Shown here piece by piece: positions 3,181 through 51,995 of a DNA stretch of 64,000 nucleotides. The notes below the pieces were generated by a model. The model made no database searches, was not told where the DNA came from, and worked only from the letters and a program-made list of their open reading frames with translations. The DNA comes from Sporichthya polymorpha DSM 43042 (GTDB lineage: Bacteria > Actinomycetota > Actinomycetes > Sporichthyales > Sporichthyaceae). Position 1 is the stretch's first letter. Every line of letters starts with the position of its first letter. Position numbers and translations under genes: made by a program. The DNA is taken from assembly GCF_000384115.1 (NCBI RefSeq), contig NZ_KB913029.1:1770907-1834906 (forward strand), in the 5' to 3' direction.

Positions 3181-3330
3181 TCCGGCGCGGCTGACTTGTC
3201 CCCGGCTGGCGCGGTTCGGCTCCGGCCGCTCCGGCGAACGCCTAGCATGGCCGCGAGGGGCTGTTCGGGAACCCGGCGGGAACTGACGGCCGCTGCCGAC
3301 CTTGGCACGCCCGGTCAGGAGGACGGTGAG

Positions 3331-4794
3331 GTGGTCTCAGCCACCCCGGAGGTGGGAACACGCCTCGCCGACCGCTACCGCCTGCTGGAGTGCATCGAGA
3401 AGTCGGACGGTTTCTCCACCTGGCAGGCCACCGACGAGAAGCTGGCCCGGCCGGTCGGCATCCACATCCTCCCGAGCGACGCCGAGCTGACGCCCGCGGT
3501 GCTCGAGGCCGCCCAACTGGCCGCGACGGTCGACGACCCCCGCTTCCTCCGGGTGCTCGACGCGGTTCACCGGGAGCCGTACGCCTACGTCGTCCACGAG
3601 TGGTTGCCGGACGCGCACCCGCTCTCGACGGTGCTCGCCCACGGACCCCTCGACCCCGACGTCGCGCAGACGATGATCCGCGACGCGGCCGAGGCGCTGG
3701 CCGCCGCGCACGAGGCCGGCCTCGCCCACCTGCGCCTGCAGGCCGACACCGTCCTGGTCCTGCCGTCGGGGCACGTGAAGATCCTCGGCCTCTGCGTCGA
3801 GGCCGCCCTGCACTCCACGACCGCCGGCGACCCGGCCCGCTCGGACGCCCGAGGTCTGGGTCGCGTGCTCTACGCGGCGCTGACCGCGCGGTGGCCCGAG
3901 GGCGAGGCCTTCGGCCTGGCCGCGGCGCCCTTCGAGCACGGCGCGATCTGCACGCCGCGCCAGGTCCGCGCCGGCGTCCCGGACGCGATGGACGCGATCG
4001 TCGACCGGCTCTTGAACCCGACCCCCCGGGCCGGCACTCCGCTGCGCAGCCCCGGGGAACTGAGGGACACCCTCCACCAGTTGCCGCGGCCCCGACCGCC
4101 GGGCAGCGGGCCCTCGCCCGACACGACCGGCACCATGTCCGCCGTCGTCACCGGGATCCTCTCCCCGATGCCTACTCCGGACGGGTGGAAACCGTCCGCG
4201 GCGACCCGCGGGGCGCAGGTCGCGGTCATCGGGATGCTCGTCATCGGACTGGTCCTGCTCAGCTGGCAGCTCCTGCGCGCGCTGGCGCCGGAGAGCCTCG
4301 GGGGGCAGGCGAACACCCCGGAAGCGGCCGCACCGCTGGTCGCGATCCCGATCACCGCGACCCGCGACTTCGACCCGCCGCCCGGCAACGGATCCGAGAA
4401 CCCGCGGCAGGCCCGGCTGGCCGTCGACGACCGGCCGCGCACCGCCTGGCGCACCGTCGCCTACAACACCCGGGCGTTCGGCGGACTCAAGCCGGGCGTC
4501 GGTCTGGTCCTCGACCTCGGCGACGCCAGGACCGTCCGCCAGGTGAAGCTGCGGCTGCCCGACGAGGGGGCCTCGATCGAGATCCGGGCCGCGGCGCTGA
4601 CCGCGAACTCCGCGCCGTCGGCACTGTCCGCCTTCCGGGTCGCGGCGAGCACCGCGGCGGCCGCCCGGGAGGAGACGCTGCGCTTCGCCTCGGCCGTTCG
4701 CACCCGGTTCGTCCTGATCTGGATCACCCAGCTCCCGCCCGGTCCCGGCCCCACGTACAGGGGTGGGATCTCCGAGGTCTCGGTCAGCGGGTAA
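3331..4794 (+). CDS. Membrane-anchored pseudokinase linked to MurJ, with C-terminal discoidin-like domain
   Basis: The GTG start at 3331 is chosen because AGGAGG lies 8 bases upstream at 3317-3322; a longer frame upstream has no comparable site. The first ~250 residues follow a protein-kinase fold, but the catalytic motifs are lost: the beta-3 lysine position reads VGIHIL, the HRD loop reads HLRL, and the DFG motif reads ILGL. It should therefore bind rather than phosphorylate. One membrane helix (AVIGMLVIGLVLLSWQLL) is followed by an extracellular beta-rich region resembling a discoidin (F5/8 type C) fold. It is the separate equivalent of the mycobacterial MviN pseudokinase domain, which recruits FhaA after phosphorylation by PknB. 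A partner of that kind is inferred, not seen. Confidence 0.85.
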   Translation: MVSATPEVGTRLADRYRLLECIEKSDGFSTWQATDEKLARPVGIHILPSDAELTPAVLEAAQLAATVDDPRFLRVLDAVHREPYAYVVHEWLPDAHPLSTVLAHGPLDPDVAQTMIRDAAEALAAAHEAGLAHLRLQADTVLVLPSGHVKILGLCVEAALHSTTAGDPARSDARGLGRVLYAALTARWPEGEAFGLAAAPFEHGAICTPRQVRAGVPDAMDAIVDRLLNPTPRAGTPLRSPGELRDTLHQLPRPRPPGSGPSPDTTGTMSAVVTGILSPMPTPDGWKPSAATRGAQVAVIGMLVIGLVLLSWQLLRALAPESLGGQANTPEAAAPLVAIPITATRDFDPPPGNGSENPRQARLAVDDRPRTAWRTVAYNTRAFGGLKPGVGLVLDLGDARTVRQVKLRLPDEGASIEIRAAALTANSAPSALSAFRVAASTAAAAREETLRFASAVRTRFVLIWITQLPPGPGPTYRGGISEVSVSG

Positions 4795-34516: not shown

Positions 34517-34589
34517 GGGGACGTAGCTCAACTGGCAGAGCACTGCCTTTGCAAGGCAGGGGTTAGGGGTTCAAGTCCCCTCGTCTCCA
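34517..34589 (+). tRNA. tRNA-Ala (TGC anticodon)
   Basis: A 73-nt tRNA with acceptor arms GGGGACG/CGTCTCC, anticodon stem CTGCC/GGCAG around TTTGCAA (anticodon TGC), and T-loop GGTTCAAGTCC. CCA is not encoded. From the anticodon loop onward it is the left attachment site of an integrated element. Its 3' part is copied at 45719 and, degenerately, at 50511. Confidence 0.97.
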
Positions 34590-34603
34590 CCGCGGTTCAC
34601 CTG
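34548..34603. repeat. attL: 56-bp direct repeat inside tRNA-Ala
   Basis: Bases 34548-34591 (44 bp, from TTTGCAAGG in the anticodon loop to CTCCACC) match 45719-45762 perfectly. After one mismatch, CGGTTCACCTG (34593-34603) matches 45764-45774. The copy on this side leaves the tRNA intact. Confidence 0.93.
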
Positions 34604-34724: not shown

Positions 34725-35882
34725 TCAGCTGGGTGAGCCGAGCGCCCGATCCATGGCTTCAGCGGCAGCACGTAGCCGCTCGTCCAGAACGTGGGTGTAG
34801 GTGTCCATCGTCAACCGGATCGTGGAGTGCCCGAGGACCTCCATGACGGTCCGGTGGTCGACGCCGTGGGCGATCAGGAACGTCGCGCAGGCATGCCGGA
34901 GATCGTGCATCCGCAGCCAGTCGAGGTCAGCGCTGGCGCGCAGAAGTTCGAATCGCCGGTTCACGTTGCGAGGCTCCATCGGCGTACCCAGCGTCGAGGC
35001 GAACACCAGGCCGTTGTCCTGCCAGGCGGGCCCAGCCGCGAGGCGCTCGGCGGCTTGCCGGGCGCGCTGCCGTTCGAACGCGGGCACCGCGACGGCGGGG
35101 ATTGGGAGGACCCGGCGGGACCGGTGCGTCTTAGGTTCCACGATGCGTAGTGATCCGCCGGCCCGTTGCACGGCTTGCCGGACGTGCAGCACCCGGTTGT
35201 CGAGGTCGACATCCGACCACCTCAGCCCGAGAATCTCGCCGCGCCGCAGGCCGAGGGTCAGGGCCACCACGAGGACCCCTTCGAGGCGGTTGCTGGCTGC
35301 TGCCGTGAGGAGGCGTTTCGCCTCCTCGACGGTGAGCACCCGGCGTTCCGGCTTGGCGAGGCTCGGTGAGCGCGCGGCCTTCGCAGCGTTGCGTGCGATC
35401 AGGTCGAGGCGTTCGGCGTCCGAGAGAGCGGAGCGCAACACGGCGTGGATCTTCACAACCGTCGCCGGAGCGACCACCTCGGCGCGGGCGGCCAGGAACA
35501 ACTGCACATCGCGAGGCCTGAGCTTGTCGAGCCGGATCTGCCCGAGGCCCGGCTTGATGTGGCTGTCGATCGCGATGCGATATCGGTCGAGAGTGCTGGG
35601 CCGGGTGCCGTCGAGAGCCTTGATGTCGGTCATCCACTCGTCGAGCCAGGCGGCCAAGGTGCGCGGCGGCGCGGCGATGTCGACCCCTTTGTCCTGGGCG
35701 CCGCGCAGCTGCCGCAGCTTCGCGACGACTTCTGCCTTGGTCGCGCCGGTGACGATCGGCCGCCGGCGTTTGCCGTCGATCCAGCCGAGGTCGAGCATCC
35801 CGACCCACCGCCCGTCGCGCGCGCGACGGTAAATGCTGCCCTCGCCGTGAGCGCGCCGGCGTGACGTGCCGTCCGTCGTCAT
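34725..35882 (-). CDS. int: Tyrosine recombinase integrase
   Basis: The 385-residue site-specific recombinase has an N-terminal arm-binding segment, a core-binding SAM-like domain (about 65-155), and the catalytic domain. Catalytic residues are Arg in LGLRRGEILGL, His-x-x-Arg in MHDLRHACATFL, His in EVLGHSTIRLT, and the tyrosine nucleophile in MDTYTHV. It reads toward attL, whose edge is 120 bases from its stop, and should catalyse integration into tRNA-Ala. The ATG overlaps the excisionase stop (ATGA). All catalytic residues are intact, so it should be functional. Confidence 0.95.
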   Translation of the reverse strand: MTTDGTSRRRAHGEGSIYRRARDGRWVGMLDLGWIDGKRRRPIVTGATKAEVVAKLRQLRGAQDKGVDIAAPPRTLAAWLDEWMTDIKALDGTRPSTLDRYRIAIDSHIKPGLGQIRLDKLRPRDVQLFLAARAEVVAPATVVKIHAVLRSALSDAERLDLIARNAAKAARSPSLAKPERRVLTVEEAKRLLTAAASNRLEGVLVVALTLGLRRGEILGLRWSDVDLDNRVLHVRQAVQRAGGSLRIVEPKTHRSRRVLPIPAVAVPAFERQRARQAAERLAAGPAWQDNGLVFASTLGTPMEPRNVNRRFELLRASADLDWLRMHDLRHACATFLIAHGVDHRTVMEVLGHSTIRLTMDTYTHVLDERLRAAAEAMDRALGSPS

Positions 35883-36118
35883 GACTCCTCCGAACCGAGG
35901 TTGTTCACGAAATCGTCGAGATGCGTCACGGGGACTCTTCGGAGCCGGCCGATGGTCACGGATCCCAGTCGGCCGGACGCCATCAGCTCGTACACCTTGG
36001 TGCGCCCGATCCCCAGAGCGTGCGCCACCTCCTCGGCCGTGAGCAATAGCTTGTCCCGCTGCCTGGGGATAACAGCTCGTTGTCCAGAGGTGCTGGCGTG
36101 GGATTGTGCTGCTGTCAT
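35879..36118 (-). CDS. xis: Excisionase / helix-turn-helix DNA-binding protein
   Basis: The ATG at 36118 is chosen because GGGGAGG lies just upstream, giving a 79-residue protein. The C-terminal part is a MerR-like excise helix-turn-helix (LLTAEEVAHALGIGRTKVYELM, then the wing GRLRRVPVTHLDDFV), as in Xis/AlpA-type directionality factors. It overlaps integrase by four bases. It should bend DNA at the arm sites and favour excision. A longer frame upstream is low-complexity and unlikely. Confidence 0.88.
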   Translation of the reverse strand: MTAAQSHASTSGQRAVIPRQRDKLLLTAEEVAHALGIGRTKVYELMASGRLGSVTIGRLRRVPVTHLDDFVNNLGSEES

Positions 36119-36155
36119 GGTCGGCCTCCCCTTCTTGGTGCTGCGGTCGTGTGAG

Positions 36156-39100
36156 CTATCGACCCGGGGCTTCGTGCCCGAGCGACGGTGGCGGTGGTGT
36201 GAGACGTGGATATCGGCGTGGCGGGGGCGGGCCGATGGCGCCCGGCGCTGTCCGGTCGGCGCGGTCGAGGGCGAGGAGGTGCTCGGCGTATCGGCGTTGG
36301 AGTTCGGTCGTGGCGGCGACCGGCGCACAGGTGCGCGCCAGGATCCCGGCCGCGATCTGACGTCCCGTCACTGGCGCGGTGGGGTCAGTGTGGTGCCACT
36401 CGCCGCTGGTGGTGTCGGTCGCCAGGTAGGCGTGGTTGGCGTGCCGGCCGCGGGTCATTCCGACGTAGAACGCTTCCCGGCTGATGCCGGGTCCGGTGAT
36501 GACGTGCGCGGTGTCGGCGGTGGCGCCTTGGGCGCGGTGGATGGTGGCGGCGTAGCCGAGCTCGACGTGGTCGCGGACGTAGTCCGCGGGCAGCCGCACC
36601 GCGCCGAAGGGGATCCCATCACTCCTGTCGACGGCGCCGGTGATGGGGGAGGCGTCGAGGGATCCGTCGGGGTGGGCGGCGTGCACGTGCCAGCGGTCAC
36701 CGTTGCGGACCCATTCACCGTTGGGCTTGGTGAGGCGGCGGTTGTTGCGGCGGGTGACGATTTCGTCCCCAACTCCGGCGCTGGTGGCGTCGTGCAGGGC
36801 GACCTGGCTGCGGGGGTCGACCGCGCCGGCGCGGATCCGGTCGGCGCGGGCGCGGGCGTTGAGCGCGGTGACGGTGTCTCGGTCGGGGGCGAGCAGCAGG
36901 CTGTGTCGGCCAGCCGCGGTGTCGGAGGCCCAGGCGCGGTAGGCCTTCTCGAGCATGGCTTCGGTGGGGCCGTCGTGCAGGCGCCCGTGGGCGGTGTAGG
37001 TGTCCAGGCAGGCCGGGTCCCCGAGGCGGAGCCGGCGGGTGGCGGCGGCTTCCCAGTCCTGACTGAACCTGTGCAGCTGCTCGAGCTCGACGGCGTGGCC
37101 TTGCTCGACCAGCAGCGCGAACGCGCCGCCGGTTTCGACCGCGCCGAGCTGGAGCGGGTCCCCGACCAGGACCACCTTTGCCCCGGCCCTGCCCGCATGG
37201 GTGATGAGCAGGTCCAGGTCGGTGGTGGCGGCCATCGCGGCCTCGTCGACGATGACCAGCTGCCCGGCCTGCAGTCGCCAGTACGTCTGGTGGGGTCCGC
37301 TCGCGTGGTCGTCGCGTCGGGTTTCGTGAGCCCACTTGGCGAGGGTGTCGGCGCCGACGTGCAGCGACGCACCCAGGGCGAGGGCGGCGGTGGCCGAGGG
37401 GGCCAGCGCGATGACGGTGCCGGAGCCGTGGGTGAGTTCCCACGCCGCCCGTAGCGCGAACAGGGCATGGGTCTTGCCGGTCCCGGCCGGCCCGACCAAG
37501 ACCTCGACCCGGCGCCCGGAGGTCGCGATCGTGGCCGCGGCGCGGGCTTGGTCGGCGGACAGCCCCGGGACGCCCGGCATCTTCCGGGCGGAGGCGACCT
37601 TGATCGGGCGCGGGTCCGCGACCGGAGCGGAGAACTCGGTGTGCGCGGCCAGCAGCCGGGCCTCGGCGGCCAGGATCTCCCAGGTCGTGTAGGCCGGCTC
37701 GGGCGCATCCGCGCGACGACCCACCCCGGTGCCGCCGCCGGCGCCGACAACGGTGCCGATAGCGGTGATGTCGGAGGAGGACGTGAGTGCCGGGCTGGCC
37801 GGGTTCGTATCGCGGTGCAGTCCGGCCGCGTTGGCCGGCGGGTCCAACGCGACGCATCGCTCCAGCGCGGCCGCGACCACCCGGTCCAGGACCGTCATTC
37901 GTGCCGCTGGGTCGGGCAGGCGCAACGCGCGGGTGACCCGGGCGGCCTCGGCGAGCACGTTCGTGCCGGTCCAGGTGGCACGCCGGGCCGCCACTGCGGC
38001 GATCGTGGCGTCGGCGTAGCGGTCCAACAGCCTTTCGGGCACGCCGGGATCGTCCGCAGCCCCAGTTGACCGGATCCTTGCCCGCCCGGTTGTCCCGGTT
38101 GCCCACCCGGTTACCCCGCTTGCCCGTCCGCTTGCCCACGGGTTATTCGCGCTGGTCAGGGGCCGGTCCACCCCGCCGGCAACCCTCGGGGAAACCGCCG
38201 TGTGGATGGCTGGGGCAATCGCGGTGTCAAGCATCGTGTCAACCGGTCGGCCGGTGACGGCCTCGGCGGTGGCCCGCCACCGGGCCCGCAGTTCCGGCAG
38301 TGGCGTGAGGTGCTTGTCCGGGCGGGTGGCCAGGGTGGCCTGCTGGCGCAGCCGCAACACCTCGACCCGGTCCGGCTCGCGGCCATGGGTCTCGGTGAAC
38401 GCGGCCACCAGGGCCTGGGTGTGCGCGCCGATCGCCTGCGAGCGGGAACTGAACGCGGCGATCAGCGCATCCGGGATGCCAGCGATCTCGAACGCCGGGG
38501 TGCGCCGCGGCCCCCGGTCCCGGTAGCCGAACCTGACCCCGAGGCGGGCGTGGAGCAGGTCGGCCAAGACGCTGTCATAGATCTCGCTACAGGCGACGGC
38601 CGCGGCGAACAGGACTTGGCCGTCGACGGCGCGCCACTTCCCGTCCGGGCCTTGGACCTTGTTCGCGATCACGAGGTGGGTGTGCAGGTTCGGGTCCCCG
38701 GCACGGGTGTCCCAATGATCAAAGGCGGCGGCGATCGCGCCCTGGGCGGGGACGCGGATCTTTGACCCGGCCCCGGTGCGGGTGTGCAGGAACCGCTCCT
38801 CCACCACCTGAAGCACGGCATCGACGGCGTCGTGATGCGCCTGCTCCACGGCGTGGGCGAGCTCGGGATCGGCGAGCGCCCACAACACCGACACCGACTT
38901 GGGCACGGTGAAGGTGAAGTCGAACCCCGCCACGGCCGAGCGTTGCGGCTTGGCCTGCTCCTGGGCCTCGATCGCGGCGACCGCCGCCGTCCGCTCCGGG
39001 TCCGTGAGGTCCGCCGGCAGCCGCCCGACCCGTTCGGTGATCCGCTCCGCCACGGTCTTGAAGCGGGGATAAGCCAGTCCGAGCGGTTCGTCGGTGACCG

Positions 39101-39350
39101 GGTTCCGGCCGGTGCCGAACAACCGGCCGATTGCCTCCTCCGTGACCACCGCCCCGGGGCGCAGGCCGCTGCCGTCGCCGGCGCCGATGCCCGGCAGGCC
39201 GGCACCGGTCCAGCGGCCGGGCGGCAGCCCGGTCGCGGTGTAGTACGCCGTGAGCGACTGCCCCGGGCCCGGGCGGGCGTCCCCGGCGGCGGTGTGCCGG
39301 GTCAGGTAGCGGTAGCCCGCTCCCGCCGACAGCCGCGAGATCGACATCAC
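36156..39350 (-). CDS. MobF-family relaxase with C-terminal RecD-like helicase (TrwC/TraA type)
   Basis: This 1064-residue conjugative nickase-helicase starts at GTG 39350 or ATG 39347. The N-terminal relaxase has tyrosines in GAGYRYLTRH for strand cleavage and the metal-binding histidines in DPNLHTHLVIANK. The C-terminal half is a superfamily-1 helicase with Walker A VGPAGTGKTHALF, Walker B LVIVDEAAM, and late motifs around YAATIHRAQGATADT. It should nick the element's oriT and unwind one strand for transfer through a helper's machinery. A 95-residue gene upstream overlaps it as GTGA. It ends 38 bases before the excisionase start. Confidence 0.92.
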   Translation of the reverse strand: MMSISRLSAGAGYRYLTRHTAAGDARPGPGQSLTAYYTATGLPPGRWTGAGLPGIGAGDGSGLRPGAVVTEEAIGRLFGTGRNPVTDEPLGLAYPRFKTVAERITERVGRLPADLTDPERTAAVAAIEAQEQAKPQRSAVAGFDFTFTVPKSVSVLWALADPELAHAVEQAHHDAVDAVLQVVEERFLHTRTGAGSKIRVPAQGAIAAAFDHWDTRAGDPNLHTHLVIANKVQGPDGKWRAVDGQVLFAAAVACSEIYDSVLADLLHARLGVRFGYRDRGPRRTPAFEIAGIPDALIAAFSSRSQAIGAHTQALVAAFTETHGREPDRVEVLRLRQQATLATRPDKHLTPLPELRARWRATAEAVTGRPVDTMLDTAIAPAIHTAVSPRVAGGVDRPLTSANNPWASGRASGVTGWATGTTGRARIRSTGAADDPGVPERLLDRYADATIAAVAARRATWTGTNVLAEAARVTRALRLPDPAARMTVLDRVVAAALERCVALDPPANAAGLHRDTNPASPALTSSSDITAIGTVVGAGGGTGVGRRADAPEPAYTTWEILAAEARLLAAHTEFSAPVADPRPIKVASARKMPGVPGLSADQARAAATIATSGRRVEVLVGPAGTGKTHALFALRAAWELTHGSGTVIALAPSATAALALGASLHVGADTLAKWAHETRRDDHASGPHQTYWRLQAGQLVIVDEAAMAATTDLDLLITHAGRAGAKVVLVGDPLQLGAVETGGAFALLVEQGHAVELEQLHRFSQDWEAAATRRLRLGDPACLDTYTAHGRLHDGPTEAMLEKAYRAWASDTAAGRHSLLLAPDRDTVTALNARARADRIRAGAVDPRSQVALHDATSAGVGDEIVTRRNNRRLTKPNGEWVRNGDRWHVHAAHPDGSLDASPITGAVDRSDGIPFGAVRLPADYVRDHVELGYAATIHRAQGATADTAHVITGPGISREAFYVGMTRGRHANHAYLATDTTSGEWHHTDPTAPVTGRQIAAGILARTCAPVAATTELQRRYAEHLLALDRADRTAPGAIGPPPPRRYPRLTPPPPSLGHEAPGR

Positions 39351-40605: not shown

Positions 40606-41085
40606 ATGCAACATTCACGCAAGGTCGCCGTCATCGCAGGAGCGGCGGCCCTTGCCGTCCTCGGCGGCGCCGGCGCTGCGACCGCGGCACAGAAGCTGAC
40701 CGGCCAGGACTGCTCCCAGGAGTACTTCTTCAACGGACAGGGCATCGAGCAGGCTGGCTACCGGTGCGCGCAGGCCCGGATCAACTACTCGTCGTACAGC
40801 GCGGTCCTTTGGGAGATCAGTTCTTACGACATCCAGTACACGGTTTCGCCGGGTCTGCAGTACGGGGCCCGCAACGACGAGAATATCTACAAGGTCGCCA
40901 CCGGCTTCAGCAGCGGGACCAAGGAGTGGAAGTCGCCCGACTCGGGTGACGCCAACGTCGGCTGGTTCAACCGCAACGTTCCCAACGCCAAGACCTACAA
41001 GGGTCAGACGTCGGTTCAGATTGACGCCTACGCGGACAAGGAAGGTCCGGACCCGCGCCTCGACCTGGACACCGCGACCTGGTAA
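40606..41085 (+). CDS. Small secreted protein, first gene of the cargo operon
   Basis: The 159-residue protein has a strong ribosome-binding site (TTAGGAGG) and a clear signal peptide: basic MQHSRK, hydrophobic core VAVIAGAAALAVLGGAGA, cleavage near ATAA-Q. The mature part (about 131 residues) has two cysteines (36 and 54), many tyrosines and asparagines, and no recognised domain; it looks like a beta-rich exported effector. It is followed after 12 bases by an exported protein and then an ABC transporter. A bacteriocin-like or cell-surface role is plausible from context, but no family match is claimed. Confidence 0.8.
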   Translation: MQHSRKVAVIAGAAALAVLGGAGAATAAQKLTGQDCSQEYFFNGQGIEQAGYRCAQARINYSSYSAVLWEISSYDIQYTVSPGLQYGARNDENIYKVATGFSSGTKEWKSPDSGDANVGWFNRNVPNAKTYKGQTSVQIDAYADKEGPDPRLDLDTATW

Positions 41086-41097
41086 CAATCGTGGTTC

Positions 41098-42282
41098 ATG
41101 GGCGCAGGAGCACGGAACGAGGGCGATAGCGCCGCGTTCCGGCTTGCCGTGGCGGCGACGCTAGGACTGGCAGTCCTCGTCGCCGCCAGCAAGCCTTCTG
41201 CCGGTTCGACCGCTCCACCACTCGACAGTTCGGCGGCGCAAGAAGGGCCGGCTCCGTTCGCGGCGCTCGTCGACGACACCGGAGCCGTGGTTCTTCGTGC
41301 CAGCGGGTCCGGGACGGTTGAAGCGATCGGGATTCGCCGAGATGGCACCCGTAAACCCTGGAAGCTGATACTTGAGGCTGGCGAGCTTCCCCTGGGTTGT
41401 GTCACGTGCCCGGACGTGCTCGTGGCTGACGCAAAAGGCGCGCTTTCTGTCGTGCGCGACGCCGTCCGTGAGCCCGTCCAGATCTCGGAACCCTTGAGTC
41501 TCGCAGCGGGGGCGCCGGGCGCGGCGTTCGTACCGGACGCCACCGTCCTTGCCACGGACTCTCCTTCTGGTGCGCTACGGCTACGGCTACTCGGCTCGGC
41601 CGGGCTTTCGGCCGACGACCTTGAGACCGCCCCCGTCGCCACGTTGCCCCTCACCACCTACCAGCAGCGGTACTCAGCGATGGCGGTGACCACCGGCGGG
41701 CGGGCTGTGGCCATTTCGCGGGTCAGCGCCCTTCGCGCGGGCGAGCTGCGGCTGGTTCAGGTTGACGGGCCTGACGTCGCTGCCGATGCTGTTGAGCCCG
41801 CCTGGGTTTCCGATCTGGAGTCCGTCACCGAGGCGGCGGCTTGCATCTCTGATGACGGCAGCGACGTTGCCTTTGTCATCCCAGGTCAACTGGGCGCCAA
41901 GGTCCTCCGCGGAGGTTTCGGCGGCAAGCTCCGCTCGGTTTCTGTTCCCGATCTGCGCCGGCCCTCGGGCTGCATTGTCAGCAACGGCAAGTTCGCCACG
42001 GTCTGGTCCGAAGGCGGGCCCGAGTCCCCGCTCAGCCACGTCACGAGACTGTCCGCCAGCGGCGCGGTATCGACCACGAAGCTGCCGGAAGGAATCGTGG
42101 CCACAGAGTTCTGCACACGAACGGGAGCCCTACTGGCACAGAGCGAGGCGGGTGCACAACTCCTGCCCGTCAGCGGCGCATCGATCGATTTACCCGAGGC
42201 GAGAATCTCGGGGTGCACGCCAGCCGGCACCGCGTGGTTCGTACGGGGGAATGGGGTGTCGTGGGTGAAAAGCGTGAACTAG
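41098..42282 (+). CDS. Exported or membrane-anchored protein of unknown function, possibly beta-propeller-like
   Basis: The 394-residue protein has one N-terminal hydrophobic helix (FRLAVAATLGLAVLVAAS), a signal peptide or anchor. The exterior part has repeated short strand-turn patterns with Asp/Gly turns (VLVADAKGALSV, VAFVIPGQLGAKVL, KFATVWSEGG), suggesting a beta-propeller-like fold, and several cysteine pairs including CVTC. No known family is recognised. It overlaps the ABC ATPase start by 22 bases, which ties it to the transporter. It may be a surface partner or receptor of the small secreted protein; that is inference. Confidence 0.75.
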   Translation: MGAGARNEGDSAAFRLAVAATLGLAVLVAASKPSAGSTAPPLDSSAAQEGPAPFAALVDDTGAVVLRASGSGTVEAIGIRRDGTRKPWKLILEAGELPLGCVTCPDVLVADAKGALSVVRDAVREPVQISEPLSLAAGAPGAAFVPDATVLATDSPSGALRLRLLGSAGLSADDLETAPVATLPLTTYQQRYSAMAVTTGGRAVAISRVSALRAGELRLVQVDGPDVAADAVEPAWVSDLESVTEAAACISDDGSDVAFVIPGQLGAKVLRGGFGGKLRSVSVPDLRRPSGCIVSNGKFATVWSEGGPESPLSHVTRLSASGAVSTTKLPEGIVATEFCTRTGALLAQSEAGAQLLPVSGASIDLPEARISGCTPAGTAWFVRGNGVSWVKSVN

Positions 42283-42989
42283 ATCCGGTCATCGAAGGAC
42301 AGCGAGCCCTGCTCTCCGATTCTCCGGTTGGCCCCCGAGACGGGGCGATCAGCCCACCACTCACGGCGCGGGGACTAACCCTGAGAGTCGGCAAGCGCCA
42401 CCTGGGCCCGTTCGACATCGATGTCTCGAACGGCGAGAGCGTCGCCCTGCTGGGATCTAATGGGTCAGGGAAGACCACTGCAATCCGCCTCGTCCTAGGA
42501 TTGGTCCGAGCCTCCACTGGACGCTCCATAGTCTTCGGACGCGAAGTCTCGCCCCTGTCACCACCGACGTCCGTCGGCTACGTACCCGACAAGGCCGAGT
42601 TCTTCGATTGGCTCGACGCGGCCGGCAACCTACGGCCATTCGCCCCGAATCGCGAGACCGTCTCGGCTTTGTTGGAACGCGTGGGTTTGTCGGATGCTGG
42701 TTCACGGGCCGTGCGCAAGTTCTCGCGGGGTATGCGTCAACGTTTGGCTCTCGCTCGTGCTCTGGCTGGAGAACCCCGGTTCTTAGTCCTCGATGAGCCG
42801 ACTATTGCTCTGGACCAGGACGGAGTCTCCCTCCTCGTAGCTATCCTGTCGGAGCGTCACGCCGGGGGGCTCGCCACATTGACCGCAACCCACGACCGCG
42901 AGTTCCTGGCCCGGCTGCCAGCTCGGGTGATCCAAGTGCAGTCCGGTAGGACTCTCAGCGCTGAGACGCCCGACGGGCCTGGGATATGA
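42261..42989 (+). CDS. ABC transporter ATP-binding protein (ABC-2 type)
   Basis: The GTG at 42261 follows GGGGGAATGG and gives 242 residues. Motifs are Walker A LLGSNGSGKTTAIRL, a Q-loop region VGYVPDK where the usual glutamine is replaced, signature FSRGMRQRLALARAL (the form common in ABC-2 and antibiotic-export ATPases), Walker B FLVLDEPT, and H-loop ATHD. It is coupled to the next gene by ATGA. Together with the two membrane proteins downstream it should form an exporter or an immunity pump energised by ATP. Confidence 0.9.
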   Translation: MGEKRELDPVIEGQRALLSDSPVGPRDGAISPPLTARGLTLRVGKRHLGPFDIDVSNGESVALLGSNGSGKTTAIRLVLGLVRASTGRSIVFGREVSPLSPPTSVGYVPDKAEFFDWLDAAGNLRPFAPNRETVSALLERVGLSDAGSRAVRKFSRGMRQRLALARALAGEPRFLVLDEPTIALDQDGVSLLVAILSERHAGGLATLTATHDREFLARLPARVIQVQSGRTLSAETPDGPGI

Positions 42990-44257
42990 ACCAAGCAAGG
43001 CGCCTCGGGTTGCCATCGCGCGCTGAGTATGCCGCTGTGCTCAACCGCCCGCTGGTTCGAATCTTGATCTTCGCAACCTTCGCCGGTTGTGTGCTCGACG
43101 CCGCGTCGGCTGGCGGCACGGCCCCCCCAGGAGTAGGCGGGAGTGTCGTAAGTACCGTCTCGGCCAACCTGACCTACGGTTTGCTCGGCGCCATGTTCGC
43201 GGGCCTGGTCGCCGCGGCGGGCCACGAGGTGGTGGCTGACGCGTGGCACTCGTCCGGGGTGGGCATCCGCCAACGCGTCGCCAGCTGCATCTGGCTCGCA
43301 GCCTCACTCGGCATCGCGGCCCGTGCGCTCACCGTCTTCGCGGTCGCGATTGGTGGACTCTTCGACGGTCTTCGACGGAAGCTGCACTGGGGATCAACCG
43401 TTCCGATCGATCACGGTCAACTTCTCCAGGCACAGGCGCGATTGCTCGGGTGCTACATCCTCGCCGCGGTTCTCGGCGCCTTGCTCGCGCTTGCGATCCG
43501 CTCCTTCACCGCGTCGATCCTGACCGTTGCTGCGATGAGCGCCCTCTACCTGCCGGTAACTGGTGCGTTAGCGGAGCGAGCGAGTTCGCTGCTTGAGGTC
43601 CTGCCGTGGCTTCCTTTTGGCTCGCTGCGCGGAACACTGACCGGCAACGGGGGCATCTTCGGCGCAAGAGGTGTTGAGCCGAGCCGTATCAGCACCGAAA
43701 GTGCTTTGCTGCTGTTCGTCGTCTGGCTGCTCGCTCTCGCCGCCCTCGCGATTCGTAGCGGAGTTTCCGGCGACGGGGTGCGCATCCTGGCGGGCGCTTC
43801 CCCGATCGCGGCTGGAGTGGGTGTCGCGGTCTTTGCCGGCCTCGTCATCCCGAAAGCGATCGCCGACGACGTGCCCTGGCAGTGGCGCCCCGCCTGGCGG
43901 CACGCACACGACGCGGGGTGGGATTCGCGCCAGGTCGCGAGTCGATGGGCGGAACTGACCAAGGAGGGAAGGGCGGACCAGACTGAGGAGTTGTTTGCGC
44001 CCAGCTTTGAGGCGAGTGCCGCTCCGCCGGATGCCGCCGAAGTCCTGAGGCTTGCGACCTCGATCGAAGTCGAGCCGACCTCGTCCATGCTGTTCCCGAC
44101 AATCACGAACCTCTGGGTTCGATTCGCCTCGCCATTTCAGACCGGCAATGTCCGCGCGACGGGAGCCTCCTTCCAGATCGTTTTCGAACAAGTCGGTGAG
44201 CGCTGGCTGATCCAAGCGATCGCCGGACCGACGCTGGAAGCGACGATCGCGCCATGA
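42986..44257 (+). CDS. Multi-spanning membrane protein, probable ABC permease with C-terminal soluble domain
   Basis: This is a 423-residue protein with about six to eight hydrophobic segments up to residue ~295 (for example LLGCYILAAVLGALLALAI and IAAGVGVAVFAGLVI). A soluble C-terminal domain of about 125 residues, rich in acidic and aromatic positions, ends in a strand pattern (SFQIVFEQVGERWLIQAIAG) recalling NTF2-like folds. It starts in an ATGA overlap with the ATPase gene and ends in another with the next membrane gene. The family was not recognised. A permease role is inferred from coupling to the ATPase. Confidence 0.75.
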   Translation: MNQARRLGLPSRAEYAAVLNRPLVRILIFATFAGCVLDAASAGGTAPPGVGGSVVSTVSANLTYGLLGAMFAGLVAAAGHEVVADAWHSSGVGIRQRVASCIWLAASLGIAARALTVFAVAIGGLFDGLRRKLHWGSTVPIDHGQLLQAQARLLGCYILAAVLGALLALAIRSFTASILTVAAMSALYLPVTGALAERASSLLEVLPWLPFGSLRGTLTGNGGIFGARGVEPSRISTESALLLFVVWLLALAALAIRSGVSGDGVRILAGASPIAAGVGVAVFAGLVIPKAIADDVPWQWRPAWRHAHDAGWDSRQVASRWAELTKEGRADQTEELFAPSFEASAAPPDAAEVLRLATSIEVEPTSSMLFPTITNLWVRFASPFQTGNVRATGASFQIVFEQVGERWLIQAIAGPTLEATIAP

Positions 44258-45051
44258 GGTCGACGGCCGCGATGAGTAAGCCACAGGTTCGGTTGCCCGT
44301 CGCGATCGTGCAGTCTGCCCGCAACCCCATTTCGCGAGTTCTCGTCGCTATTGGGATCGCGCTCGGCGGTCTTGGGGCTACCTATCCGACGGGATTCCTG
44401 GGCGAGCCTCGGGCTCCAGGACTGGTCGCCGGCGCGGCGCTGGGGTTGGTAGGCGCGCTGGTCGCATCCCCTCTTTGGGCAGTGGTGTTGGGAGCAAATG
44501 CAGCCGCTTCTGGGGGTACATCCGGCTTTCGGGCGGTGGCACATGCCCAGGGTCGGTCGCAGGTTCACGTGAGAGCCGCCGAGTTCCGTACCGCCGTTGG
44601 ACAAGTCGGCTTGTGCGCACTGGCTGGAAGCGTGGGGGGCGCGATCAGCGCACTTGCGCAACGCAGCTCGCTTGAACCACCGACAGGCGTCGCGGCTCAT
44701 TCGCCGAGCGCATCGGCGTTCGTGGCGGCCGTTGCGTTGGGAATTGCGGCTGCCGCACTCGGCTACCCGCTCGGTGTCGCGGCAACGCGCACCCTGACGG
44801 CCGTCCTGCTCTACTTCGCGGTGCTTGCCGTGGGTGGCCTATTGCTGGGCGCGGCCTACTACGCCCCTGGGCTGGGCGCCGTCGCCAGCGCCTCACCGGC
44901 GGGCATTCTGGTCACCATGGCCCGTTCCGAGATTCTCGCGCCCCAGTTCACGACTGAACTCAAACCGCTTGTGGCGTACGTTGCGGCCGCCGTATGGGGT
45001 TTGGTGCTGCTCTCCACCGCCGCCTGGCAGATCGCCCGGCGAGTCGACTAA
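44254..45051 (+). CDS. Multi-spanning membrane protein, probable second ABC permease
   Basis: The 265-residue protein has about six hydrophobic helices (ISRVLVAIGIALGGLGATYP, AALGLVGALVASPLWAVVLGA, FVAAVALGIAAAALGYPLGV, VLLYFAVLAVGGLLLGAAYY, and a last helix before IARRVD). It starts in an ATGA overlap and is followed after 15 bases by a lipoprotein gene. The helix count and position suit an ABC-2-type membrane subunit pairing with the previous gene product as a heterodimer. No family is recognised. Confidence 0.75.
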   Translation: MRSTAAMSKPQVRLPVAIVQSARNPISRVLVAIGIALGGLGATYPTGFLGEPRAPGLVAGAALGLVGALVASPLWAVVLGANAAASGGTSGFRAVAHAQGRSQVHVRAAEFRTAVGQVGLCALAGSVGGAISALAQRSSLEPPTGVAAHSPSASAFVAAVALGIAAAALGYPLGVAATRTLTAVLLYFAVLAVGGLLLGAAYYAPGLGAVASASPAGILVTMARSEILAPQFTTELKPLVAYVAAAVWGLVLLSTAAWQIARRVD

Positions 45052-45066
45052 GGAGGACCGATTCCA

Positions 45067-45453
45067 ATGACGTGCAGGCGCGTTCCTGCTCTGGCCCTTG
45101 TGGTCTTGCTCGCGCTGACTGCTTGCGGCGACTCCGACTCCACCCCAGAGCCCGCTGCGCGGCCCACCTTCGCCCCGGGCGCTGTTCCTGCGGAGATGAA
45201 GCCGGCGTGCGGGAATCCAGCGGGGAAGGTCACACTCAAGAAGAACGCGCTCCCACTCACGATTGCTCAGGCGGACTGTGACCTCCGGGGAGTGCTCATC
45301 ACCTGGCGGGAAGGTTCGGAGCGGGTGCCTGGCGGGGATCCACGTACTGCAACGGAGTGCACCTCGGCAGCAGGAGACTGTCCGTCGATTGCCGTGGATG
45401 CGCTTGGCACGGTGCAGATCACGCGAGCAGGCGACAGCTCGGCACGGGACTAG
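45067..45453 (+). CDS. Lipoprotein, last gene of the cargo operon
   Basis: The 128-residue protein has a strong site (AAGGAGG) and a lipoprotein signal: MTCRRVPALALVVLLALTAC, with lipobox LTAC and Cys20 as the lipidated residue. The mature part has further cysteines that could form disulfides (CGNPAG, DCDLRG, ECTSAAGDC). No family is recognised. In an operon that also encodes a secreted protein and an ABC system, a surface lipoprotein could bind the secreted product or protect the producer; this is inference. Confidence 0.8.
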   Translation: MTCRRVPALALVVLLALTACGDSDSTPEPAARPTFAPGAVPAEMKPACGNPAGKVTLKKNALPLTIAQADCDLRGVLITWREGSERVPGGDPRTATECTSAAGDCPSIAVDALGTVQITRAGDSSARD

Positions 45454-45718: not shown

Positions 45719-45774
45719 TTTGCAAGGCAGGGGTTAGGGGTTCAAGTCCCCTCGTCTCCACCACGGTTCACCTG
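45719..45774. repeat. attR: copy of the tRNA-Ala 3' half
   Basis: It matches 34548-34603 at 55 of 56 positions. The 5' half of the tRNA is absent, so this is not a tRNA gene. It is also the left boundary of a second, decayed element. Confidence 0.92.
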
Positions 45775-45846: not shown

Positions 45847-47124
45847 ATGTCGGCCTCCTCGCAGCCTCGCCGCCCCGAACGCTCCCTGCGCAGGCGCGGG
45901 AACTCGTGGCAGGCCTCGTTGTTTGTCAACGACGCCGACCCCGCTGACCGGTCGCCGGCGCTCCGCGATCGAGACGCACCCGACCCAGGCCCTGGCACGC
46001 AAGGCGCTGAACCGGATGCGCGCCGAGCGTGACGCCGACCGGATCGCCCGGACCAACGGTTCGTTCTCGGTCGCCCTGGCCGAGTGGCTCCAGGTCCAGG
46101 AGCTCGAAGAGACGACGCGTCGCTCGTACGAGGCCTACGTCCGCAACCACATCGGGCCCGTACTCGGCGACGTGCCGCTCTCGAGGCTGACCCCGCGGCT
46201 GCTGGAGCGCTTCGACGCCGACCTCCGGCTTTGCCGGGGCGCATTGCCGGCCCGGGGAGGAACGCCGCGACCACCGGGTGGCCGGCGAACATGAGTGCGA
46301 GGTCACCCTGCACAAGCGGCCCCCGGGCCGGCTGTCGGCCGGGGTCGAGCATTCCTGTGCTTCGGCGGGTTGCGTGGTGCGGTCCTGCCCGCCGCACTCG
46401 TGCCGGCCGATGGCCAACGCGACGATCAACCGGATCCACTTCATCATCAGCGGCACCCTCGCGGCCGCGGTGCGGTGGGGCTGGATTGCGACCAACCCGG
46501 CCTCGGTGGCCAAGAAGCCACGGGTGCCCGCGCCGCAGCCGAACCCGCCGACCTCCGAGCAGGCCGCCCGGATCCTCGCGGCGGCCTGGGAGGTCGACGT
46601 CGACTGGGGCACCCTCGTGTGGCTGGTGATGGTGACCGGGCTGCGTCGCGGCGAGCTGCTCGCGCTGAAGTGGTCCGACGTCGACTTCGACACCGAGACC
46701 CTGGTCGTCCGCCGCGGCATCGTGAAAGTGGGCAGCCGGGTTATCGAGAAGGACACCAAGACCCACCGGATGCGCCGGATTGCGTTGGACGCGGAGACGA
46801 TGAGGTGCTCCAGGAACACCGGGCCCCCTGGGACGTCCAAGCGATTGAACTTCGGTTGGACGCATTGGACGAGTCGTACCTCTTCTCGTACAAGCCTGAT
46901 CAGTCGGAGCCGTACGACCCCAGCGGCGTCACCCACCGGTACTCGCGCATGTGCGCCGGCCTCGGGATAAACACCCACCTCCACGCCCTGCGCCACTACT
47001 CGGCGACGGAGGTGTCACGACCCTGCGGGTCTACGCGGCCTTTGTTGCGGAGTCCGACCGACGAGCGGCGGAGATTCTCGGTAGTCGGATGGAACGTCCA
47101 AAGTGGCCCGGACAAAAGCAGTAA
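45847..47124 (+). pseudogene. Tyrosine integrase, disrupted by frameshifts and a deletion
   Basis: Conserved pieces lie in order in different frames. They are the N-terminus RSLRRRGNSWQASLFV (from 45847), then ALARKALNRMRAERDADRIA and the core-binding domain (about 45956-46240), then INRIHFIISGTLAAAVRWGW and TGLRRGELLALKWSDV with the catalytic arginine (about 46420-46800). Next come LHALRHYSATE with the His/Arg pair (about 46978-47010), and finally TTLRVYAAFVAE with the tyrosine and its natural stop at 47122-47124. At least three frame changes are needed, and the segment carrying the second histidine (GH motif) is missing between the last two pieces. It cannot make an active enzyme. It differs from the intact integrase at 34725. 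Confidence 0.9.
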
Positions 47125-47187
47125 CCCCGGTGATGTGCGCAAGCGCAGGGATCGTTCCGGGGTCTTCACCAACGAGGATGATCGCCG

Positions 47188-47835
47188 TTGAGCGCATTGT
47201 CAAACGACCGGCCCAGCGCTGTGGAGATCGCCCGCTGGTGCTCCGTCGAGCGGTTCCGCCCGTACCTGAGGGCGGCAGGCGACCACGACGCGGCCCTCGC
47301 GCTGTACGAGTGGAACATCGCCGTGGCCGGCGCGTTCTACGAGCTCATCGGTGTAATCGAGGTGCTGCTCCGGAACACCATCCACGCCCGGCTCGCTGCG
47401 TGGCATCGACGCGCTGGGCGTCCCGGCGCGTGGTTCGACCACCCCGCAACCGGCCTGTCACCTCAGGCGGTGCTCGACGTCGCGAAGGCGCGATCCCGGC
47501 TCCGCGCCACGGAAACCGAGGGGCGGATCATCGCGGAGCTCCCGTTTGGGTTTTGGCGATTTCTGCTCGAGCGCCGACACCAGGCGCAGCTCTGGCCGCA
47601 GCTCCGGCCCGCCTTTCCGCATCTTCCCGATGGTCGTCGCCATGTGCTGCGCAACGATGTCGTCGCGCTTCACGCCCTGAGGAATCGGATCGCGCACTAC
47701 GAGCCCATCCACACGATGAACCTCGTCGAAAGCCACCGGTGCGCGCTCCGGATTGCCGGCTACATCGAGCCGTCCGCGCAGAAGTGGGCAGGTGGCCTTT
47801 CCCGGGTTGACCAGGTGATCGTCGCGCGTCCTTGA
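47188..47835 (+). CDS. Abi-like protein (Abi_2 type, HEPN fold), candidate phage-defence factor
   Basis: The 215-residue protein starts at TTG 47188, with a weak GAGG upstream. It matches the Abi-like family in RFRPYLRAAGDHDAALALYEWN and AGAFYELIGVIEVLLRNTIHARL, and has the HEPN ribonuclease motif Arg-x4-His in LRNRIAHYEP near residue 170. Proteins of this class act in abortive infection, cleaving RNA after phage entry. It lies alone between the broken integrase and toxin-antitoxin remnants in the decayed element. The frame is intact, so it may still be expressed; promoter and trigger are unknown. Confidence 0.8.
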   Translation: MSALSNDRPSAVEIARWCSVERFRPYLRAAGDHDAALALYEWNIAVAGAFYELIGVIEVLLRNTIHARLAAWHRRAGRPGAWFDHPATGLSPQAVLDVAKARSRLRATETEGRIIAELPFGFWRFLLERRHQAQLWPQLRPAFPHLPDGRRHVLRNDVVALHALRNRIAHYEPIHTMNLVESHRCALRIAGYIEPSAQKWAGGLSRVDQVIVARP

Positions 47836-48777: not shown

Positions 48778-50402
48778 CCTCGATCTTTCGTGACCAGCCG
48801 GTTCCCAGCGAGCGGGTAGTCGATGGCGTTGGTCGGAGTCCTGGGCACTGTTGTCCGCCGGCGTTGTGTTCGCCGGTTCTCCGGGGTGTTCGTCGCGACG
48901 GGATCTGGGTTCAGGTCAGGGCGGTCAGTCGTTGGTGGCCGCCGGTGATCAGATCGGCCCAGGGCCATCGGGAGTTCAGGCGCAGGGTGCGCCGACGGCC
49001 GGTGGTGATCACGCGGGCGGCGACGCTGAGCAGGCGTAGTCGAAGACGTTTGGGTTCCCAGCGGCGGGCCGCGTGGGTGGGCCAGGCCAGCAGCTGGGTC
49101 CAGACCAACAGCTCGGTGGCCAGCTGGGCGAGTTCGAGCCAGAGCTCGTTCTTGGTGAACGAGTGCAAGGGCAGGTTGGTGGCGCCGGTGTCTTTCAGCG
49201 TCCGGACGCGGTCCTCGGCCCGGGCCCGTAACCGGTGTCGGACTTCGAGATCGGCCAGACGAGAGCCGCGGGTGTTGGTGGCGAACACAGTGATGCGCCA
49301 GCCGTCCGCGTCGGTGATCCGCAGCTGCGCACCGACGTGGGGCTCCTCGCGACGGGCGATCACCCGCATGCCGGGCGGCCATCCGGTGAAGGAGGCCGGC
49401 AGCCAGCGGGTCAGTTCGGCGACCTGCGCGCCCGGGCGCGGGCACCCGTCAGCATCGAGGGCGGCGCGCCAAGCCTGGCGTGGTAGGACCGCGAGGGCAT
49501 CGAGCACCGGTTGACGGGCGGCGATCCCGACCGAGAACTCCAGGCCGAGCTCATGCACGTGGTTCAGCAAGTCCTTGACCCCGCCCGCGCTATCGGCGCG
49601 CACCAGCACCCCGCCCCGCACCGCTTCGGGCAGTTGGGCGAGTGCGGCATCGAGGACTGCGATCTGATCGGCGGCGTTGTTGGCATTCGCACTGCCGGGG
49701 CGCAGCAGCGCGGCCAACGGCTCGCCGGTTCCGGTCGGGCCGTGATCGGCGAAGGCCAGGAGCGGGTGGAACCCGAACCCGCGCTTGAAGGTCGGCGCCG
49801 CTCCTTCCTTCTCCGAATGCGCCCCGACCAGCGTGGCGTCCAGATCCAGCACCGGGCGGTCCTGACCAGCCCACGGATCGACCCGTGACCACACCCACGC
49901 CCGGGCCTGCGCGCGGGCGGCACGGATCGCGCCGAGTGTGGCTTTGGCCGTGTCCGGATCTGCGGCCAGGGTTTCGATAAGTCGGCTGACCGTCGGGTCC
50001 GAAGCCACCGGGCCGAACAGCTCCGGCTGCGCGCGCACCAACGCCAGATCGGCCAGACAGTCCCCACCCAACGCGATCGCGACCACCAGATCGAGCACCG
50101 TCTTGCCTGGGTCGTGCACCGCCCGGTGCGCCCGCCACGGCGCCAACCCCCGGGACAGGGCACCGGCCAAGCCGCTGACCACCGCGGTCTTCAAAAGCAA
50201 CGCCCCACCCGCTGAAGAGATCAGCGACTCGCCGCCAGCCTCAACACGGGGCACAGAACGAACCCGGCTACCCTTCACCTACGGAGTGCCTTCCGGCTCG
50301 GCGATCTTGGACCTTCGACAAGCCCAGAATCCCGTGCCAGACAGGCACTTCCGTGTTTAACGCGCCGAACTCAACCGCTCACACGCGAAATGTCGAGGCT
50401 AG
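48774..50402. mobile_element. IS1380-family insertion sequence with CTAG target duplication
   Basis: The element spans 48778-50398 (1621 bp) and is flanked on both sides by CTAG (48774-48777 and 50399-50402). Its ends are imperfect inverted repeats: CCTCGATCTTTCGTG on the left and, reading inward from the right, CCTCGACATTTCGCG (12 of 15 identical). It carries one transposase gene on the minus strand. Removing it restores a stop codon directly followed by a GTG start of a toxin fragment. Confidence 0.88.
48911..50278 (-). CDS. IS1380-family transposase
   Basis: The 455-residue DDE transposase starts with GTG or ATG near 50278 and fills most of the insertion sequence. Features of the IS1380 group are VLDLDATLVGAHSEKEGAA with the first acidic residues, ADHGPTGTGEPLAALLRPGSA, VLVRADSAGGVKDL with the second aspartate, and a C-terminal ARAEDRVRTLKDTG with the likely glutamate, followed by ELAQLATELLVWTQL. 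No frameshift is seen, so the element may be active. Genes on either side are the remnants it separated. Confidence 0.9.
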   Translation of the reverse strand: MKGSRVRSVPRVEAGGESLISSAGGALLLKTAVVSGLAGALSRGLAPWRAHRAVHDPGKTVLDLVVAIALGGDCLADLALVRAQPELFGPVASDPTVSRLIETLAADPDTAKATLGAIRAARAQARAWVWSRVDPWAGQDRPVLDLDATLVGAHSEKEGAAPTFKRGFGFHPLLAFADHGPTGTGEPLAALLRPGSANANNAADQIAVLDAALAQLPEAVRGGVLVRADSAGGVKDLLNHVHELGLEFSVGIAARQPVLDALAVLPRQAWRAALDADGCPRPGAQVAELTRWLPASFTGWPPGMRVIARREEPHVGAQLRITDADGWRITVFATNTRGSRLADLEVRHRLRARAEDRVRTLKDTGATNLPLHSFTKNELWLELAQLATELLVWTQLLAWPTHAARRWEPKRLRLRLLSVAARVITTGRRRTLRLNSRWPWADLITGGHQRLTALT

Positions 50403-50501: not shown

Positions 50502-50510
50502 CGCCAAGCC

Positions 50511-50544
50511 GGGGTTAGGGGTTCAAGTCCCCCCGTCTCCACCA
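50511..50544. repeat. Third, degenerate copy of the tRNA-Ala 3' end
   Basis: The sequence matches 22 bases of the T-arm and variable loop (GGGGTTAGGGGTTCAAGTCC and two more), then after one T-to-C change CGTCTCCACCA. It lacks the anticodon loop part. It marks the right edge of the decayed second element and so the end of the accessory block. Confidence 0.85.
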
Positions 50545-50609: not shown

Positions 50610-51995
50610 GTGTCCGCACGACTGTCCAGTGGCCATCCCCGGTTGGACCAGGTGCTCGGTGGGGGCATCTGGAACGACGCGCTGACGATGATCACCGGGG
50701 ATCCGGGGACGGGGAAGACGCTCCTCGCCCAGCAGATCGTGTTCGCGAACGCGACTCCGGAACGCCCCTCGCTCTACGTCTCCACGGTCTCCGAGCCGAT
50801 GGAGAAAATCCTCCGCTACGGCCGAAGCCTGTCGTTCTTCGACGAGGACGCCATCGGCAAGTACGCCTTCTACGAGGACCTCGGCGGGGTGCTCGACGAG
50901 CGCGGGCTGCCGGCGTTCGTCGAGCGGCTCGAGGCGGTGATCGCCCAGCACCGGCCCGCGCTGATCGTCATCGACAGCTTCAAGGCGCTGCACGCGTTCG
51001 CGCAGGAGCCCAGTGACTTCCGTTGGTTCCTGCACGACATCGCGGCCCGGCTCTCCGCGACCGGCGCCGCCGCGCTGTGGGTCGGGGAGTACAACGCGGA
51101 AGAGATCAGCCGCGAACCCGAATTCGCGGTCGCCGACGCGATCATCTCGCTCACGTCATCCATGACCTCCGAGCGCCAGATGCGGATGCTGCAGGTCATG
51201 AAGCTGCGGGGCAGCGACTTCATGTCGGGCCAGCACGGCTACCGCCTGTCGGCCGACGGCCTGCACGTCTTCCCCCGCCTGGCCGACGTGCCGGACCGGG
51301 CGGAGTACGAAGTCAGCGCCGAGCGCCTGACCTCCGGCATCTCGGTGCTCGACTCGATGACCGGCGGCTACTGGCCCGGCTCCTCGACACTCGCCGCCGG
51401 GCCGTCGGGTGTCGGCAAGACGGTGCTCGGCCTGAGCTTCATCGTCGCCGGCGCCGACGCCGGCGAACGCGGCCTGATCGCCACGCTGCAGGAGAACCCG
51501 ACGCAGCTCGCGCGCGCCGCATCCGGATTCGGCTGGGATCTGTCACACCCTCAGATCGAGGTGCTCTACCGCTCGTCGGTCGACCTCTACGTCGACGAGT
51601 GGGTCCACACGGTGTTGGACACCGTCGAGCGGACCGGTGTCAGCCGGCTGATGGTGGACAGCCTGGGCGACCTCGCCCACGCCTCGCCCGATCCCATCCG
51701 GTTCCGCGAGTACGTCTACTCCTTCGTCCAGCGGTGTGCGACCCGCGGCGTCAGCGTCTTCCTGACGATGGAGGTGCCGGACCTGTTCCACCTCAACCGG
51801 CTCTCCGAGCTCGGTGTCTCCAACATGAGCGACAACGTGATTCTGCTGCAGTACGTGCGGGCGGAGTCGAAGATCAAGCGCGCTGTCACCGTGCTGAAGA
51901 CGCGCGCGAGCGCGCACGAGCCCGAGGTGCGCCGCTACCGGATCACACACCGTGGCATCGAGGTCGGGGGCCCGATGGAGGCCTACGAGACCTGA
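50610..51995 (+). CDS. KaiC-like two-domain ATPase
   Basis: The 461-residue protein starts with GTG 50610 behind GGGAGGAA. It has two RecA/KaiC-type domains: the first with Walker A TGDPGTGKTLLAQQI and Walker B ALIVIDSFKAL, the second (from about residue 235) with AGPSGVGKTVLGLSF and RLMVDSLGDL. Cyanobacterial KaiC has the same tandem layout, but kaiA and kaiB are absent here. It converges with a three-gene signalling operon (histidine kinase, REC-HATPase, SpoIIE phosphatase), with 19 bases between the stops. KaiC-like ATPases often sit beside sensor kinases; a role as ATP-driven signalling switch is inferred. Confidence 0.88.
   Translation: MSARLSSGHPRLDQVLGGGIWNDALTMITGDPGTGKTLLAQQIVFANATPERPSLYVSTVSEPMEKILRYGRSLSFFDEDAIGKYAFYEDLGGVLDERGLPAFVERLEAVIAQHRPALIVIDSFKALHAFAQEPSDFRWFLHDIAARLSATGAAALWVGEYNAEEISREPEFAVADAIISLTSSMTSERQMRMLQVMKLRGSDFMSGQHGYRLSADGLHVFPRLADVPDRAEYEVSAERLTSGISVLDSMTGGYWPGSSTLAAGPSGVGKTVLGLSFIVAGADAGERGLIATLQENPTQLARAASGFGWDLSHPQIEVLYRSSVDLYVDEWVHTVLDTVERTGVSRLMVDSLGDLAHASPDPIRFREYVYSFVQRCATRGVSVFLTMEVPDLFHLNRLSELGVSNMSDNVILLQYVRAESKIKRAVTVLKTRASAHEPEVRRYRITHRGIEVGGPMEAYET

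Follow-up and report, generated by a model that had tools for sequence, protein, structure and literature searches.

A five-gene core of a secreted protein and an ABC transporter on a mobilisable element of Sporichthya polymorpha: a candidate bacteriocin-like system

Organisation of the operon

The 64,000-nucleotide stretch of the Sporichthya polymorpha DSM 43042 genome analysed here (the window, in whose coordinates all positions are given) carries at 40606-45453, on the forward strand, an operon of six genes, g1 to g6; the 11.2-kb element that carries it, integrated in a tRNA-Ala gene, has no other cargo. All six are intact open reading frames (ORFs) that run in one direction over 4.8 kb and encode proteins of 159, 394, 242, 423, 265 and 128 amino acids (aa); their successive junctions measure +12, -22, -4, -4 and +15 bases, and both g3/g4 and g4/g5 overlap in an ATGA. 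The initial annotation of this DNA, which described six co-directional genes with short gaps or overlaps, is thus borne out, and our reading of ORFs, motifs and topology confirms the protein types that it proposed: a secreted protein, an exported protein, an ATP-binding cassette (ABC) ATPase, two permeases, one of them with a soluble C-terminus, and a lipoprotein. Its claim that no member matches a known family stands for five of the proteins and fails for the ATPase, g3, the only operon protein named by Pfam, NCBIfam and PHROGs. A PADLOC scan of the operon gave ATPase-type matches only. Approximately 1.25 kb upstream of g1 reads as non-coding.

The first gene, g1 (40606-41085), is preceded by a strong AGGAGG site and encodes a secreted protein with a signal-peptide-like N-terminus, the putative effector in the reading developed below; a weak Pfam match to ArdcN (E-value, E, 0.031) lies below the cutoff. 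The product of g2 (41098-42282) is a beta-rich protein, exported or held by a transmembrane (TM) anchor, with a single N-terminal hydrophobic segment at residues 12-30 and, by eye from its sequence, a propeller-like character. A match to g2 in another genome (G623, E 9e-4) fell away when rechecked.

The third gene, g3 (42261-42989; a second open start, GTG, lies upstream at 42213), encodes an ABC ATPase of exporter type, which scores above the PF00005 cutoff (2.6e-26) and has intact Walker A (GSNGSGKT), signature (FSRGMRQ) and Walker B (LVLDEPT) motifs. Among ATPases of solved structure it comes nearest to NosF (E 5.2e-31), and it matches the lantibiotic-protection model TIGR03740 at 6.3e-24 with 84.9 bits, far below the cutoff of 309.75.

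The two permeases follow. The first, g4 (42986-44257), is predicted to have its N-terminus inside and about seven TM segments, which places its last ~120 residues outside the cell. In the AlphaFold2 model, residues 310-420 mostly have a predicted local distance difference test score (pLDDT) of about 80, while the TM part, mostly under 50, is unreliable. Among the structural matches listed for residues 296-423, most are NTF2/cystatin-like, with a middling best Z of 8.6 that speaks to fold only and implies no function; on this model, the soluble domain (residues ~300-423) has an NTF2/cystatin-like fold. The second permease, g5 (44254-45051), has six to seven hydrophobic segments. The last gene, g6 (45067-45453), encodes the 128-aa lipoprotein, with the lipobox LTAC and a GGAGG site, and we regard it as accessory.

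The conserved core and its distribution

Relatives of this operon were found in two other genomes. An ATPase-based scan of the genome collection led to a metagenome-assembled genome of Actinomycetota from a peat bog (fen), in which g1-g5 are complete at locus L015, in the same order and with similar junctions. A g4 profile led to a genome (G444) of the same phylum as that of the window and of another class, which holds two divergent copies: L113 (contig C213), complete with a 141-aa secreted protein first, and L106 (contig C268), whose contig begins inside a g2-like gene, so that the end of this gene is followed by the ATPase, g4 and g5. A further genome entry (G757) has the same contigs and coordinates as G444 and was counted once with it. 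In total, four copies are known from three genomes of two classes, one of them cut at a contig end, and the g1-g5 order is kept in every complete copy across both classes. Since this order recurs in the relatives while g6 has no counterpart, the conserved core consists of five genes, encoding a secreted protein, an exported beta-rich protein, an ABC ATPase, a permease with an outside NTF2-like domain and a second permease. The expectation that the six genes travel together therefore holds for g1-g5 and fails for g6.

Between the window and L015, the identities of g1 to g5 are 45, 29, 48, 32 and 33%, with g1 occupying the same operon position and g3 reaching 52% in its best segment. The two more divergent copies are linked to the window most clearly through the ATPase (35-37% identity) and the permeases, whose homology to their counterparts in L106 and L113 is supported by profile comparison with hhalign (E 1.1e-7 for g4 and 4.7e-9 for g5). 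For g1 and g2, the same comparison gave an E of ~0.005 and a probability of 7%. The g1 and L113 proteins scored a z of 8.2 over shuffles, and those of L015 and L113 only 0.9. The secreted protein of L113, and the g2-like proteins of L113 and L106, thus appear to be counterparts essentially by position and character, not by sequence.

Copies of the operon are very thinly spread, which is what one would expect of mobile cargo, and this patchiness fits horizontal transfer. The g4 profile found the operon only in the window and G444 among 396 genomes of the phylum, apart from weak matches without support; a single-sequence g4 query, which distant forms would escape, found only the window's own copy among 394 genomes of its class. 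The operon occurred only in the fen genome and G444 among 125 genomes of their class, and it was not found among 120 relatives of G444. Direct single-protein searches gave no convincing relative for g4 alone (genome contigs, plasmids and the 394 class genomes), for g1 (plasmids and phages) or for g2 (plasmids and the 396 phylum genomes), and only the ATPase query led to L015. Nothing was found in viral contigs with g1, g3 or g4 profiles. None of six weak g4 matches (L099, L100, L102-L105) was backed by a neighbouring gene within the short stretches inspected, and two others (L116, L117) are chance matches that lie over a different reading frame of a DnaE-like gene. At L113, the complete operon is followed by a gene for an exported protein of 667 aa (2303-4306, reverse strand), part of which is CarboxypepD_reg/Ig-like, and then by an ORF that looks, by eye, like a DDE-type transposase.

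The mobilisable element

The element lies in a tRNA-Ala gene (TGC anticodon; 34517-34591, forward strand; ARAGORN), whose 3' end forms attL, one copy of a 56-bp direct repeat (34548-34603); a 98% copy at 45719-45774 forms attR. Three genes on the reverse strand precede the operon: an intact 385-aa tyrosine integrase (34725-35882; motifs read by eye), an excisionase (xis)-like HTH_17 protein (35879-36118, from a presumed internal ATG; PF12728 3.9e-11 for the longer ORF 35879-36328) and a MobF/TrwC relaxase-helicase (36156-39350; PF08751 9.6e-87; NF041492 257.5 bits, above cutoff). The integrase had no match in PADLOC, the only family scan made of that protein. With att repeats, an integrase and a relaxase above cutoff, the element has the features of a MobF mobilisable element, and the initial view of the operon as its only cargo stands, with the correction that a second, decayed element sits in tandem downstream, for which attR doubles as attL. 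Another genome of the genus (G003) has the tRNA gene followed 66 bp later by DNA equivalent to the window from 50556 onward, and the tRNA 3' end at this site matches the downstream att copy over 46 bp at 100%. Because the tRNA runs on into this DNA, we read the site in G003 as empty, with the whole array missing there, and the window as holding two tandem insertions. The guanine-plus-cytosine (GC) content at third codon positions is 0.68-0.75 in g2-g6 and 0.85 in g1, compared with 0.89 in the relaxase and 0.93 in a resident gene; since the cargo lies below both, it probably has a different source from the transfer genes of the element.

Functional interpretation

The genes, their conserved order, their predicted membrane placement and their mobile vehicle are directly supported. 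The best single explanation for what they do, to which we give a probability of about 45%, is a bacteriocin-like effector paired with an ABC system that protects its producer. In this scheme, g1, exported through the Sec pathway and ~130 residues long when mature, would act on the envelope of neighbouring cells, and the g3-g4-g5 complex would be a pump that rids the producer's membrane of g1. Surface capture of g1, the task that LanI has beside LanFEG, may fall to the outside NTF2-like domain on g4 and to the anchored g2, joined in this element alone by g6. The element would benefit in that its recipients acquire protection, while cells losing it lie exposed. The scheme is supported by the position of a secreted protein at the head of both complete relatives, by the g1-g5 order kept across two classes and by the exporter type of the ATPase, with its sub-cutoff TIGR03740 match; the sole-cargo status, the sparse distribution and, by analogy, the gene plans of known bacteriocin systems and of a Streptomyces plasmid trio lend further support. 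The proposal of a new bacteriocin-like system in the initial annotation is upheld in part, as regards an unnamed gene set and an exporter-type ABC transporter that, like LanFEG, pairs a single ATPase with two unlike permeases; its lipoprotein, seen only in the window operon, drops out of the conserved set.

One similar plan is that of the lantibiotic-protection systems, in which LanFEG pumps out the lantibiotic that the cell itself makes, with LanI binding it (PMC5786555). As in LanFEG with LanI (e.g. NisFEG/NisI), one ATPase is combined with two unlike multi-TM permeases in series and an adjoining lipoprotein gene. At the Q-loop, where the LanFEG ATPases carry a glutamate (the E-loop), L106 and L113 have an IEEP motif (GAMIEEPRFY), and an aspartate occupies this place in the window and L015. 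Unlike in LanFEG, the operon has no lantibiotic precursor or modification genes, its g1 product is a Sec-secreted protein of ~130 residues, and g3 does not reach the curated TIGR03740 cutoff; g2 is additional and the lipoprotein is not conserved. LanFEG permeases have about six TM helices each; here g5 has six to seven segments and g4 has a seventh TM segment and the NTF2-like domain in addition. The lactococcin 972 cluster (lcn972-orf2-orf3) likewise places a secreted protein before ABC immunity genes and helps to stabilise its plasmid (PMC4055356), and it resembles the operon in gene order (window, L015 and L113) and in its mobile replicon. Its transporter layout is different, and g2 is extra in the operon. 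The lactococcin 972 family models did not match g1 at E up to 1 in Pfam or NCBIfam, nor its L015 and L113 counterparts in Pfam, and the model for the cognate bacteriocin-associated integral membrane protein matched neither g4 nor g5 (Pfam, NCBIfam). Because the curated models fail, the operon, judged by sequence, belongs to neither family despite the likeness in layout.

A recurring unnamed trio on Streptomyces linear plasmids (L014, L109, L110) consists of a ~115-aa secreted protein (once duplicated), an ATPase and a 727-aa FtsX-like permease, with ATPases ~57% and secreted proteins 34-41% identical among the copies; the ATPase of L014 is 35% identical to g3. The trio resembles the operon in setting a small secreted protein directly before an ABC pair, here on plasmids; unlike in the operon, the secreted protein is not recognisably g1-like, and one large FtsX-like permease stands in place of two, with no g2.

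Several observations weigh against a bacteriocin function. Comparison of the window with L015 shows g1 and the ATPase conserved to much the same degree (45% versus 48%), and g1 better conserved than g2, g4 and g5, which is unusual for a fast-evolving arms-race effector. The g1 protein matches no bacteriocin or toxin family in Pfam or NCBIfam, and its AlphaFold model, built from a two-row alignment, has a pLDDT of 40 and no usable fold. LanFEG substrates are short peptides, not proteins of 130 residues, and to our knowledge a g2 counterpart is absent from lantibiotic and lactococcin 972 clusters. No counterpart of g6 lies next to g5 in L015, L106 or L113. The main grounds for caution are that, in the one close relative, g1 has kept as much of its sequence as the ATPase, and that the toxicity of g1 is putative.

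The main and serious rival, possible by analogy with the copper/sulfur machinery NosDFY and its lipoprotein NosL, is that g2-g5 act at the cell surface as an ATP-driven machine that matures, folds, loads or releases g1 itself or a lipid or cofactor that g1 binds, with g1 being a structural, adhesive or enzyme-like surface protein and not a toxin. In its favour, NosF is the nearest solved relative of g3, NosDFY-L also combines an outside protein, an ATPase, a permease and a lipoprotein, g1 is well conserved in L015, and a simple pump would not usually have outside parts as large as g2 and the NTF2-like domain of g4. The likeness to NosF, however, is that of a broad ATPase type; NosD family models do not match g2, the surroundings of the operon showed no nitrous oxide reductase gene, and g1 does not need ABC export because it has its own signal peptide. 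A pump that guards solely against foreign membrane-active compounds or envelope stress, with g1 as sensor, decoy or shield, would share its plan with the CprABC-type resistance pumps, which likewise have one ATPase and two permeases (PMC5786555), and resistance is common on mobile elements. We consider it improbable, as no two-component regulator was recognised among the ORFs read beside any copy (window, L015, L106 and L113) and a fixed secreted partner is atypical of resistance pumps.

Neither importer families nor conjugation or exclusion modules, which the initial annotation had set against its own proposal, were matched. A surface or entry-exclusion module in the service of the element's own conjugation would fit the adjacent MobF relaxase, and NTF2-like folds are found in TraM and VirB8-like transfer proteins. 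It is very improbable: the fold is very common and the Z middling, no exclusion or transfer family was matched, and the ORFs read next to the operon at the three related loci, two of them on short contigs, include neither a relaxase nor an integrase. Least probable of all is a nutrient importer, to which an ABC transporter with a lipoprotein might point, since the ATPase is exporter-like, the sole permease family signal is a weak ABC-2 match of the L015 g5 (E 0.066), no substrate-binding-protein family was matched and the lipoprotein is absent from the relatives.

In its wider form, the bacteriocin-like interpretation would make the operon a new class of protein bacteriocin and self-protection cassette in Actinomycetota, spread by mobile elements, with a secreted, folded effector of ~130 residues and an ABC complex bearing two outside capture parts, the anchored g2 and the permease-borne NTF2-like domain; we regard this as a tentative, somewhat doubtful extension. 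An effector with its own pump would give this phylum, already rich in secondary metabolites, a further type of protein bacteriocin, with unusual outside domains on the pump. The five-gene core spans classes, yet, apart from the ATPase, it is missing from Pfam, NCBIfam, PHROGs and PADLOC, and annotation pipelines overlook the set because these libraries name only the ATPase.

Neighbouring sequences

The second, decayed element extends from 45774 to ~50543, where it ends at a partial att copy (near 50505-50543). It contains a broken integrase (45847-47191), an Abi_2/PD-T4-5-like protein (47188-47835; PADLOC 9.2e-9) and, by eye, a probable insertion sequence transposase (48911-50278). Directly after the array lies a gene that looks from its sequence like a KaiC-like ATPase (50610-51995), and this gene adjoins the tRNA-Ala in the empty site of G003. 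The integrase of the second element has a counterpart, 80% identical at the DNA level, next to the same tRNA-Ala in another genome of the genus (L010; G004:C171, 4654-19903). That locus also has a Fic-like ORF and, 15 kb away, one more att-like repeat; the intervening ORFs resemble glutaminyl-tRNA synthetase and acyl-CoA metabolism genes.

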